A stretch of DNA of 64,000 nucleotides from Xanthomonas sp. (GTDB lineage: Bacteria > Pseudomonadota > Gammaproteobacteria > Xanthomonadales > Xanthomonadaceae), in the NCBI GenBank assembly GCA_018262705.1, contig JADFDQ010000004.1, positions 124,001 to 188,000 of the forward strand. The letters run 5' to 3'. Below are positions 11,685 through 22,916 of this stretch, piece by piece. Both the position numbers and the translations under genes were made by a program. The notes under the pieces are model-generated. The model ran no database searches. It was not told the DNA's origin and worked only from the letters and a program-made list of their open reading frames with translations. Within the stretch, counting starts at the first letter, position 1. Every line of letters begins with the position of its first letter.

Positions 11685-11720
11685 CCCTCTCCCGCTGGCG
11701 GGAGAGGGCAGGGGTGAGGG
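11685..11720. repeat. Palindromic intergenic repeat between atpD and atpC
   Basis: CCCTCTCCCGC (11685-11695) pairs with GCGGGAGAGGG (11698-11708), followed by CAGGGGTGAGGG. The same layout (CTCTCCCG/CGGGAGAG stem, spacer, GGRTGAGGG) occurs twice inside lpdA at 21023-21145, so this is a repeat family with at least three copies in the window. Confidence 0.75.
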
Positions 11721-19545: not shown

Positions 19546-21393
19546 TCAAGCGTGGCTTTTCGCCTTCTTCGGAATGTATAGGTCGGTGATGCTGCCGTCA
19601 TACACCTCGGCCGCCATCCCCACCGATTCACCCAGCGTGGGGTGTGGGTGGATAGTGTGGCCGATATCTTCGACCTCGCAGCCCATTTCGATGGCCAGCG
19701 CGACTTCCGAAATCAGCTCGCCGGCGTGCACGCCAACAATGCCGCCGCCGATCACACGATGGCTATCTTCATCGAAAAGCAGCTTGGTGAAACCTTCGGT
19801 CCGCGCCAAGCCAATCGCCCGGCCGGACGCCACCCACGGGAACTTACCCACGCCCACTTTCAAACCCTTGGCCTTGGCCTCGGTTTCGGTGACACCCACC
19901 CATGCAATTTCCGGGTCGGTATAGGCCACCGACGGGATCACCCGCGCCACCCATTCTTTTTTGTGCCCGGCGGCCACTTCAGCGGCCAACTTGGCCTCAT
20001 GCGTGGCCTTGTGCGCCAGCATCGGCTGGCCAACCAGATCACCAATGGCGAAGATATGCGGGACATTGGTGCGCATCTGCGCATCTACCGGAATCAGCCC
20101 ACGCTCGCCCACCTGCACACCGGCCTTGTCGGCAGCCAGCTTGCCGCCATTGGCGCTGCGCCCCACCGACACCAGCACGCGGTCGTACAATTTCCCGTCG
20201 GGGATGGACTCGCCTTCGAAATTGCAGCTGATGCCGTTTTTCTGCGCTTTGGCATCCACCACTTTCGTTTTCAGGTGGATAGCCACACCCTGCTTTTTCA
20301 GACGGTCAGCCAGCGGCTTGACCAGATCCAGATCCGCACCCGGCATTAGCTGCGGCATGAACTCGACCACCGTCACCTCACTGCCCAGCGCGCGATACAC
20401 CGTGGCCATTTCCAGCCCAATGATGCCGCCGCCAACCACCAGCAAAGTTTTCGGTACATCGGCCAGATTCAGTGCATCGGTGGAATCCATGATCCGCGGG
20501 TCTTCCCACGGGAACGCCGGCAATTTCACCGGCTGGCTGCCGGCAGCGATGATGCATTGTTCGAAACGCAGCAATTGGGTTGCGCCATCGGTGGCGGTGA
20601 TTTCCAGCTCGTTGGCCGACACAAATGTGGCCACGCCCTGCACCACCCGCACCTTGCGCTGCTTGGCCATCCCGGCCAGACCCTTGGTGAGCTGCCCCAC
20701 TACGTTTTCTTTGTAGCCACGCAGCTTGTCGATATTGAGTTTTGGCTTACCGAAATCCACGCCATAAGCACTGGCATGGCTGGCCTGCTCGATCACATCG
20801 GCCGCGTGCAACAACGCCTTGGACGGAATGCACCCAACGTTGAGGCAGACGCCACCCAAGTTGGCATAACGTTCGATGAGCACGGTATCCAGACCCAGAT
20901 CGGCGCTGCGGAACGCGGCGGTATAGCCTCCCGGGCCGGCGCCAATCGCCACCATCGCGCATTCGATATCGGCTTTGCGGCCGGAGGCGGCGGCGGCTTG
21001 CGGAGCGGGGGCGTTGATCTTCACCTCTCCCGCCGGGAGAGGTCGCTGCGCAGCAGGTGAGGGTTCGCTACCGCGCGAGGACGACTCGCCACCGTCTTGC
21101 GTACCCTCATCCGCCCTTCGGGCACCTTCTCCCGAGGGGAGAAGGGAAGCAGCGGCACCGCTCTCAATCACCGCAATCACCGCGCCTTCCGACACGCTAT
21201 CGCCCAGCTTCACCTTCAGCGCTTTGATGACGCCATCGGCGATGGCCGGCACTTCCATGGTCGCCTTGTCCGATTCCAACGTCACCAAGCCCTGGTCTTT
21301 CTTCACGGTATCGCCGACTGCCACCAACAACTCGATCACCGGCACGCCGCCGTGGCTGCCGATATCGGGCACTTTGCTTTCAATGTCTGCCAT
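19546..21393 (-). CDS. lpdA: Dihydrolipoyl dehydrogenase with N-terminal lipoyl domain (E3 of pyruvate dehydrogenase)
   Basis: A 615-residue FAD enzyme that reoxidises dihydrolipoamide on E2, giving NADH. The N-terminal lipoyl domain (residues about 1-80) has the acceptor Lys43 in ESDKATM. The E3 core begins near 141 with FAD motif GAGPGGYTAA, redox pair C183/C188 in GGVCLNVGCIPSK, NAD motif GGGIIGLEMATVYRALG, and a C-terminal HPHPTLGES carrying the active-site His. The linker at about residues 83-125 is Ser/Gly/Arg/Pro-rich, unlike the usual Ala/Pro linker, and is encoded by two inverted intergenic-type repeats. The start at 21393 is preceded by GAGGA. It lies 143 bases after aceF; aceE is not nearby. 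Confidence 0.95.
   Translation of the reverse strand: MADIESKVPDIGSHGGVPVIELLVAVGDTVKKDQGLVTLESDKATMEVPAIADGVIKALKVKLGDSVSEGAVIAVIESGAAASLLPSGEGARRADEGTQDGGESSSRGSEPSPAAQRPLPAGEVKINAPAPQAAAASGRKADIECAMVAIGAGPGGYTAAFRSADLGLDTVLIERYANLGGVCLNVGCIPSKALLHAADVIEQASHASAYGVDFGKPKLNIDKLRGYKENVVGQLTKGLAGMAKQRKVRVVQGVATFVSANELEITATDGATQLLRFEQCIIAAGSQPVKLPAFPWEDPRIMDSTDALNLADVPKTLLVVGGGIIGLEMATVYRALGSEVTVVEFMPQLMPGADLDLVKPLADRLKKQGVAIHLKTKVVDAKAQKNGISCNFEGESIPDGKLYDRVLVSVGRSANGGKLAADKAGVQVGERGLIPVDAQMRTNVPHIFAIGDLVGQPMLAHKATHEAKLAAEVAAGHKKEWVARVIPSVAYTDPEIAWVGVTETEAKAKGLKVGVGKFPWVASGRAIGLARTEGFTKLLFDEDSHRVIGGGIVGVHAGELISEVALAIEMGCEVEDIGHTIHPHPTLGESVGMAAEVYDGSITDLYIPKKAKSHA
21023..21145. repeat. Inverted pair of palindromic repeats inside lpdA coding sequence
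   Basis: The left copy has stem ACCTCTCCCG/CGGGAGAGGT (21023-21032 with 21034-21043), a spacer, then GGTGAGGGTTC. The right copy, on the opposite strand, has stem CCTTCTCCC/GGGAGAAGG (21125-21133 with 21137-21145), a spacer, then GGATGAGGGTACG. Both share architecture with the intergenic repeat at 11685-11720. Both are read through in frame as the linker of LpdA. Confidence 0.8.
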
Positions 21394-21536: not shown

Positions 21537-22916
21537 TTACAGCATGGCCCGACGCAAGTCGGCCAGCAGTTGCCCAAGGTAGGTGGTAAAGCGCGCCGCC
21601 GCAGCGCCATCGATCACCCGGTGGTCATAACTCAACGACAGTGGCAGCATGAGGCGTGGCTTGAACTTCTCACCGTTCCAGATCGGCTTCATTTCCGACT
21701 TCGACACGCCCAAAATCGCCACTTCCGGCGCATTGATGATCGGCGTGAACTTGGTGCCGCCAATCCCGCCGAGCGAACTGATCGTAAAGCAGCCGCCCTG
21801 CATCTGATCCGGCTTGAGCTTGCCGTCGCGCGCCAGCGCAGCCAGCTCGCCCATTTCCCTGGCGATCTGCGCCACGCCTTTTTGATCGGCATCGCGCAGC
21901 ACCGGCACCACCAAACCATTCGGCGTATCGGCGGCAAACCCGATGTGAACATACTGTTTGAGCACGAGGTTGTCGCCATCCAGCGAGGCATTGAAGGTGG
22001 GGTATTTCTGCAACACCGCCACGCACGCCTTGATCAGGAAGGCCAGCATGGTCAGCTTGCTGCCCTTGCCTGCCGCAATCGCTTTTGCATTCTCGTTATT
22101 GAACGTCACGCGCAAGTCTTCCAGCGCGGTGATATCGGCTTCATCGAATTGGGTGACGTGCGGAATCATCGCCCAATTGCGCGCAAGATTGGCGCCGGAA
22201 ATCTTCTGGATGCGTGACAGCGGCTTGCTTTCGATGGCACCAAATTTGGCGAAATCCACCTTCGGCCACGGCAGCAGGTCCAGGCCAGCGCCAGCGGTCG
22301 TCGTACCCGCCGAGACTGCAGCGCCGCCGCCGGCCAGCGCCGATTTCACGAACTGCTGCACGTCCTGTTTGCCGATGCGACCGTTGCGGCCGCTACCGGC
22401 GATCTGCAGCAGATCCACGCCCAGCTCACGGGCGAACAGGCGCACCGCCGGGCTGGCGTAGGGCACCTTGGCCGGCAACACGGCATTGGCCTCAAAGCGC
22501 ATCGGCGGAATGCCCGGCTGACCGGGCTCGGCCACTGGCGCCATGGACGGTACCGGCGCGCCGCTTTCCACCATCGCCACTTGCGGTACCGGGACGGGCG
22601 CTTCGATCGGCGCAGGCGCAGGCTTGGCCGCTTCGGGAGCTGGCGCGGGCGCCGGAGCGGTTGCAGCCGCCGTTTCCGCCACTTCGATGACCGCCACCAG
22701 CGCGCCTTCGGAAACGACATCGCCCAGCTTGACCTTCAGCTCCTTGATCACGCCGTCGAACGGCGACGGCACTTCCATGGTTGCTTTGTCGGATTCCATG
22801 GTGGCCAGCCCCTGATCCTTGGCAACGGTATCGCCTGGTTTGACCAGCAACTCGATGATCGGCACGTCACCATGCCCGCCGATATCGGGGACTCGCACTT
22901 CCTTCAGTTCAGCCAC
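21537..22916 (-). CDS. aceF: Dihydrolipoyllysine acetyltransferase (E2 of pyruvate dehydrogenase)
   Basis: A 459-residue core enzyme that transfers acetyl groups from lipoamide to CoA. It has one lipoyl domain (residues 1-78, lipoylated Lys44 in ESDKATM), an Ala/Pro linker, a peripheral subunit-binding domain (PYASPAVRLFARELGVDL to GRIGKQDVQQF), a second linker, and the catalytic domain ending YDHRVIDGAAAARF with His432 and Asp436. A single lipoyl domain is the compact form common in Lysobacterales. The linker here is a normal Ala/Pro type, in contrast to that of LpdA downstream. Confidence 0.96.
   Translation of the reverse strand: MAELKEVRVPDIGGHGDVPIIELLVKPGDTVAKDQGLATMESDKATMEVPSPFDGVIKELKVKLGDVVSEGALVAVIEVAETAAATAPAPAPAPEAAKPAPAPIEAPVPVPQVAMVESGAPVPSMAPVAEPGQPGIPPMRFEANAVLPAKVPYASPAVRLFARELGVDLLQIAGSGRNGRIGKQDVQQFVKSALAGGGAAVSAGTTTAGAGLDLLPWPKVDFAKFGAIESKPLSRIQKISGANLARNWAMIPHVTQFDEADITALEDLRVTFNNENAKAIAAGKGSKLTMLAFLIKACVAVLQKYPTFNASLDGDNLVLKQYVHIGFAADTPNGLVVPVLRDADQKGVAQIAREMGELAALARDGKLKPDQMQGGCFTISSLGGIGGTKFTPIINAPEVAILGVSKSEMKPIWNGEKFKPRLMLPLSLSYDHRVIDGAAAARFTTYLGQLLADLRRAML

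Follow-up and report, generated by a model that had tools for sequence, protein, structure and literature searches.

The window analyzed here is a stretch of 64,000 nucleotides from the 2.49-Mb genome of a Xanthomonas sp. (G000), and it carries on its minus strand the lpdA gene (19546..21393), identified from its open reading frame (ORF) and Pfam matches as encoding a dihydrolipoamide dehydrogenase (E3) of 615 amino acids with an N-terminal lipoyl domain. In the 616-residue reading, which starts one codon upstream, Pfam placed Biotin_lipoyl at residues 8-77 and Pyr_redox_2 at residues 149-468, so that the lipoyl domain ends at about residue 77 and the flavoprotein domain starts at about residue 148. 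Between these two recognizable domains lie two inverted stem-loops, to which no strand was assigned. The first arm (21023..21063) has a perfect 10-bp stem of the CTCTCCC/GGGAGAG type (21023-21032/21034-21043), a small GCTGCGCAGC palindrome and a TGAGGG inner end (21058-21063); after an inner spacer of 40 nt (21064..21103), the second arm (21104..21146) opens with a CCCTCA inner end (21104-21109) in inverted orientation, followed by a mini-hairpin CCGCCCTTCGGGC and a perfect 9-bp stem CCTTCTCCC/GGGAGAAGG (21125-21133/21137-21145). The arms belong to two subtypes, CTCTCCC with CAGCAGGTGAGGG and CTTCTCCC with CCCTCATCCGCCCTTCGGGC. The lpdA ORF shows no interruption across the whole element (21023-21146), as the first-pass annotation had stated, and the encoded linker covers residues about 82-125 (LLPSGEGARRADEGTQDGG...EPSPAAQRPLPAGEVK; 21019..21149, minus strand, by ORF and pLDDT). 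That annotation had also described residues about 83-125 as encoded by two palindromic repeats of opposite orientation; the inverted stem-loops are there, but both are arms of one two-armed doublet rather than two insertions. Upstream of lpdA lies the E2 gene aceF (pdhB; 21537..22916, minus strand, by ORF), whose Ala/Pro linker is free of the repeat (12/18 in the linker detector described below) and was used as an internal control. A single-arm copy of the same family, found with the stem-plus-tag pattern at 11685..11720 (G000:C19:135689-135720, no strand assigned), has the same arrangement of stem and inner end, in agreement with the annotation, and was taken as intergenic; the single ORF of at least 110 amino acids that spans it (L188) lacks coding-like GC on both sides.

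The LpdA segment was predicted to fold more stably than its dinucleotide shuffles (z of -3.8 as RNA and -4.7 as DNA), and, like the ends of a BIME or REPIN doublet, TGAGGG and CCCTCA pair with each other in the predicted fold. In an AlphaFold model of LpdA, weak overall (mean pLDDT 67) and built on a 25-sequence alignment, residues 80-127 had pLDDT below 50, as did six other segments, which gives supportive evidence for a disordered linker. A search of five repeat loci (L006, L013, L012, L108, L079) against Rfam returned seven matches, all under the gathering score.

To describe the repeat family, we used a genus set of 25 genomes, namely G000 and 24 congeners. Thirty nucleotides of the second arm (21104-21133) occur exactly at three places in G000, LpdA included, and a BLAST search of the genome with the 146-nt LpdA segment found 12 other places at E <= 1e-3. 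The stem-plus-tag pattern gave 20 matches in G000 (one nested in another) and 0 to 55 in the 24 congeners, some of them nested; it was absent from five of the 25 genomes, and a reversed-pattern control gave no match in any of the 25. The recurrence of the stems elsewhere in the genome, which the first-pass annotation had proposed as a check, was thus borne out by exact 30-mer, BLAST and pattern, in G000 and in several congeners. A simple CTCTCCCG stem pattern with three mismatches, in comparison, found within the window the 11685 copy and not the LpdA repeat, with 0.86 matches expected per shuffled window; the stem alone is weak evidence, but the full arm is not a product of chance. The arms of copies elsewhere fall into two subtypes, CCCTCATCCG...CCTTCTCCC and CCCTCACCCC...CCTCTCCC, and doublets elsewhere bear inner TGAGGGTTCG...CGAACCCTCA ends. 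Among 57 fetched loci of G000, G015 and G003 there were 21 inverted pairs, many other copies being single arms, and the inner gap was 24-44 in 16 of the 21 doublets (measured by script as the nucleotides between plus one). The family is therefore REP/REPIN-like in that short palindromes are inverted about a short spacer and dispersed in many copies.

LpdA linkers were compared with a detector of three motif blocks (maximum score 18, cut-off of at least 17), which was devised after some of the positive rows were known. Six of the 25 genus genomes reached the cut-off (G000, G006, G015, G017, G019 and G022), in comparison to 0 of 500 codon shuffles. The LpdA match of G002 is 90% identical, yet its Ala/Pro linker is shorter, unrelated and free of the repeat, which answers in the negative whether a repeat-free relative has a similar linker. 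Over the same span the linker is 53 residues in G002 and 73 in G000; since the net gain of about 20 residues is smaller than the roughly 43 that the repeat encodes, part of the old linker was lost. Empty and filled pairs were G000 versus G002, G006 versus G005, and G022 versus G018/G020, and plain Ala/Pro linkers occur even inside the repeat-bearing clade (G002, G016). The empty site in G002 and the dispersed family together support the annotation's proposal that a repeat landed between the lipoyl and E3 domains and was kept as coding sequence. In a tree of E3 DNA (33 rows, 11 of 30 inner branches unresolved), placing the six repeat-bearing genus rows in one clade was rejected (p-AU 7.9e-52), and at least four changes were needed. 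Recognizable arms are common to G015, G017 and G019, and the second arm of G000 is shared with G017. Judged from these sequences, the simplest account would be one older insertion in the G000/G015/G017/G019 clade, subsequently altered or lost in places, and independent events in G006 and G022. The linker of G023 (score 15) may hold a decayed copy. L057 and L137 have the same linker. In G014 the lpdA gene (G014:C1:2754376-2756155; L138, L139) is split over two frames, the gene being either broken or affected by a sequencing error.

Contrary to what the first-pass annotation had expected, the insertion extends beyond the genus. For a survey of the Lysobacterales, lpdA and its upstream flank were taken from the first 120, by score, of the 196 non-genus genomes in a 200-genome draw, an order that favors LpdAs near that of the window and slightly disfavors odd linkers. 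Eighteen of these 120 LpdA linkers carried a strong arm (score of at least 17) and 102 did not, in comparison to 3 of 2400 codon shuffles that reached the cut-off, and the aceF linkers reached it in 3 of the 67 that were readable among the 120 (1 of 1340 shuffles). In a set of named species, some of whose genomes overlap the survey, 12 of 79 LpdA rows scored at least 17 (one of 80 was unreadable), and the repeat-bearing species include Dyella lipolytica, D. amyloliquefaciens, D. solisilvae and Frateuria flava. A quick tree of E3 proteins (144 rows, omitting that of the truncated G014; weak support at 40 of the 141 inner branches) required a minimum of 14 state changes, gains and losses pooled. 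As a further observation, a regular-expression count found two lipoyl motifs in LpdA of Luteimonas, Pseudoxanthomonas, Stenotrophomonas and one Rhodanobacter (L036, L037, L060, L062-L064, L067, L069, L076, L084).

Invasion of the linker goes with the copy number of the family. Within the genus, the insertion was present in 6 of 7 genomes with at least 15 pattern matches in comparison to none of 18 with at most 6, with kinship ignored; four independent pairs gave a sign test p of 0.125. In the first 80 of the 120 survey genomes, it was present in 16 of 41 with at least 5 matches and in none of 39 with fewer, again with kinship ignored. Copy number is not sufficient, however: of the 64 genomes with a repeat-free LpdA, 13 had 30 to 328 pattern matches, four of them from group g9 with 112-176, which counts against a simple mass-action account.

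Copies of the repeat also lie in frame in other genes. We examined 17 loci of G000 (five without a strict-pattern arm), 32 of G015 and 8 of G003, the last being part of its 35 matches, and counted as coding 7 of 32 in G015, 2 of 17 in G000 apart from LpdA, and 0 of 8 in G003, the others being intergenic or undecided. Pfam-supported ORFs spanning the repeat were those of ValS, HrpB, a second E2 (L319), PurL, Mfd, an RND pump and MiaA in G015, and those of Ugd and a peptidylarginine deiminase in G000. For L327 and L333 (plus strand), L317 (minus strand), L349, L351, L178 and L182, coding status was not accepted, as the repeat-spanning ORFs had no Pfam match. The inserts of ValS, PurL and the E2 sit between complete Pfam domains and that of the RND pump between the halves of its model, but those of HrpB, Mfd, Ugd, MiaA and the deiminase, five of the ten in-frame copies, break a Pfam domain model, so that survival is not confined to interdomain linkers; the latter inserts presumably sit at loops. 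In PurL, six congeners show GQPP or GQAP ahead of AID, and G015 has about 35 repeat-encoded residues at this position (LLPPGEGARRADEG...PNPSPEGRGAL), a peptide that is almost that of LpdA; the short sequence of G019 is of another kind, and no match was obtained for G017. Further on, PurL of G015, G000 and G019 (L375, L378, L382) has a second variable Ser/Pro-rich insert that is absent in five other aligned congeners. The same repeat type lies in the aceF linkers of L050, L100, L113 and L123, so that several lipoyl-system proteins are affected. In addition, several congeners and G000 carry the repeat, as a copy or a doublet, immediately ahead of the match to a second E3 gene or across its start (G000:C21:33658-33760; G015:C2:99378-99509; G006:C4:198929-199063; G010:C1:1760448-1760485). 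In-frame insertion into a conserved gene with empty orthologues in close kin, as in RPE-like coding repeats, was found for LpdA, PurL, ValS and Ugd. The annotation's likening of the LpdA repeat to RPEs within a central metabolic enzyme is supported, but LpdA is just one of several core enzymes concerned.

The same sites also harbor other repeat types. The Ugd loop (L385-L393) has the LpdA-type repeat in G000 and G019 and a GTAGGAGCGCACC-type sequence, a GTAG-type REP, in G015 and G018. The ValS loop (L395-L403) has the LpdA-type repeat in G015 and G017, and other palindromes, repeat-like by sequence only, in G019 (GTTCG...GAACGG) and G022 (CCCTCCCC...GGGGAGGG). Other lineages bear related or different REPs in the LpdA linker itself: two of 224 linkers (L226, L288) contain both ends of a GTAG-type REP doublet, GTAGGAGCG and CGCTCCTAC, in comparison to 0 of 44800 shuffles.

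The reading that we consider highly probable is that the LpdA linker derives from a REPIN/BIME-like mobile palindromic doublet, which entered a disordered linker between two domains in frame and was retained as coding sequence in the manner of the Rickettsia RPEs. The doublet would move as a unit through trans-acting single-strand (REP-type) transposition or copying, damaging insertions would be purged so that the survivors gather in linkers and surface loops, and the Gly-Glu-Gly / Pro-Ser frame of LpdA would survive because its product is a disordered peptide that stays soluble. To the enzyme the insert is probably near-neutral, and ongoing copying or conversion from copies in the genome probably holds it near the consensus of the family. 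That a low-complexity linker instead converged on the repeat by its composition, with no insertion at all, appears extremely improbable: LpdA linkers do in general evolve fast and have a biased composition, but codon shuffles reached the cut-off in just the 3 of 2400 cases given above, the 30 exact nucleotides are common to two other loci, and both the doublet geometry and the inner ends are those of copies elsewhere. Convergent composition was thus rejected on the exact 30-nt sharing and the codon shuffles.

We regard it as unlikely that the hairpins are kept for a role in the aceF-lpdA mRNA or DNA, such as ribosome pausing between the lipoyl and E3 domains, RNA stability or a protein-binding site, with the peptide as a by-product. 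The strong predicted structure, as RNA and as DNA, would agree with such a role, and so would the conservation of the arms: in the first arm of nine Rhodanobacteraceae-group LpdA genes, 45 of 269 pairwise fourfold sites differ in comparison to 87.7 predicted from the E3 rate, on pairs that are not independent and few sites, and L229 and L245 have identical 36-nt arms despite 98 differences among the 241 fourfold sites of their E3 parts. Conversion from many genomic copies yields the same signal, however, and the low divergence would fit conversion or re-insertion as well as selection on structure. G219 holds 158 copies of the Rhodanobacteraceae-group first arm within 3 mismatches, its LpdA copy being an exact one, and G170, G172 and G160 hold 1-6. 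Moreover, the 102 survey linkers without a strong arm, the varying subtype and number of arms, and sisters such as G002 that keep the gene without arms all speak against a structural role. Beneficial domestication, in which a Ser/Pro/Gly/Glu linker improves lipoyl-domain swinging or complex assembly and insertions are positively selected, seems quite improbable as well. It would account for the uneven distribution in the 83 genomes in which both linkers could be read (16 of 25 in the genus, 67 of 120 in the survey), where LpdA alone carried the insertion in 21, aceF alone in 2 and both in 2, with kinship ignored, despite a total linker length of 27525 nt for aceF in comparison to 18024 nt for LpdA. 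It would also account for the constant codon phase in the 24 repeat-bearing LpdA linkers of genus and survey, where TGAGGG is read T GAG GG in 18 of 18 occurrences and CCCTCA is read CCC TCA in 14 of 14, in related rows whose effective number we estimate at perhaps five to eight. Purging of bad frames or shared ancestry explains the frame bias equally, however, G002 and G016 keep lpdA with plain Ala/Pro linkers inside the repeat-bearing clade, and inserts are also found where a linker would bring no expected benefit, namely in ValS, PurL and Mfd. Elsewhere the repeat is read in other phases (TGAGGG in HrpB, MiaA and Ugd; CCCTCA in Mfd and PurL).

Beyond the in-frame insertion and retention of a mobile doublet in LpdA, we tentatively suggest a broader picture, which at present seems somewhat doubtful. 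Permissive sites shared across the order, namely the LpdA linker, the ValS and Ugd loops and others, may be repeatedly colonized by unrelated REP-type families, with the LpdA peptide filtered to one frame, such that selfish palindromes would be a continuing source of disordered linkers in core enzymes and the insertion machinery or selection would prefer such sites to linkers of equal length like that of aceF. The case is one of a palindromic repeat becoming part of central enzymes outside Rickettsia, with filled and empty sister sites and different repeats per loop, and it makes testable whether coding palindromes are merely tolerated or supply useful linkers; it thereby helps to show how selfish DNA turns into protein. 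It also carries a warning, namely that a Ser/Pro/Gly segment in an annotated Lysobacterales protein, if encoded by a repeat, should not be taken for a conserved motif.

With regard to a mobilizer, none of 24 Y1_Tnp (RAYT) loci in 18 of the 25 genus genomes had a strict-pattern arm in the fetched flanks of about 1.5 kb, some of them shorter, and RAYT was on this ground set aside as the mobilizer of the LpdA-type repeat. The one Y1_Tnp gene of G000 is ringed by GTAG-type repeats and carries the GTAGGAGCGCACC repeat that is printed for the Xanthomonas axonopodis RAYT (PMC2817692). Around this gene (G000:C17:191062-191397; L144) there are many GTAGGAGCG repeats, followed by what appears to be a VapBC-type toxin-antitoxin-like pair. 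The inspected copies of the LpdA-type repeat have neither a GTAG (or GTGG) nor a CGTC tag at the stem, their end being CCCTCA. In its two inverted palindromes, short spacer and many dispersed copies, the element resembles REPINs and BIMEs as described in PMC2817692 and PMC3116915, and it differs from the REPIN/RAYT system in having no adjoining RAYT in those flanks.

Intragenic GTAG/CGTC REPs and their dimers are known from genes of several species, where they are reported to encode 20-30 residues (43-82 for clusters); their targets include tRNA synthetase genes and recB, the latter hit at nearly the same position in two X. species, and the authors suggest that flexible linkers or loops tolerate REPs (PMC3733652). 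The LpdA-type repeat is similar in that REPs and dimers lie inside genes, and differs in having neither tag at the stem; the main text of that paper has no occurrence of "dihydrolipoamide dehydrogenase". The available text of PMC1590033 holds nothing on this repeat family, and no title among the open-access matches listed concerns the family or a repeat in the LpdA linker. Other small non-autonomous repeats that fuse in frame to genes are ERIC, YPAL and Correia/NEMIS; compared by description, several of these are listed with target-site duplications (PMC2229807), and none was demonstrated for the LpdA doublet. The closest parallel is the Rickettsia RPE, described as palindromic repeats of 105-146 bp that lie between genes and in frame within conserved genes, a guanylate kinase having been shown active despite its insert (PMC2229807); RPEs within Rickettsia genes are also summarized in PMC6649704. 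Both systems have palindromic repeats open in frame within conserved genes. They differ in lineage and in layout, the LpdA-type repeat being a two-armed doublet with tag ends that is set apart by layout alone, and here sister species bear other REP types at the same sites. Intragenic GTAG/CGTC REPs having been published already, what is new here is this repeat family, the repeated invasion of the E3 linker and the reuse of sites by unrelated repeats.
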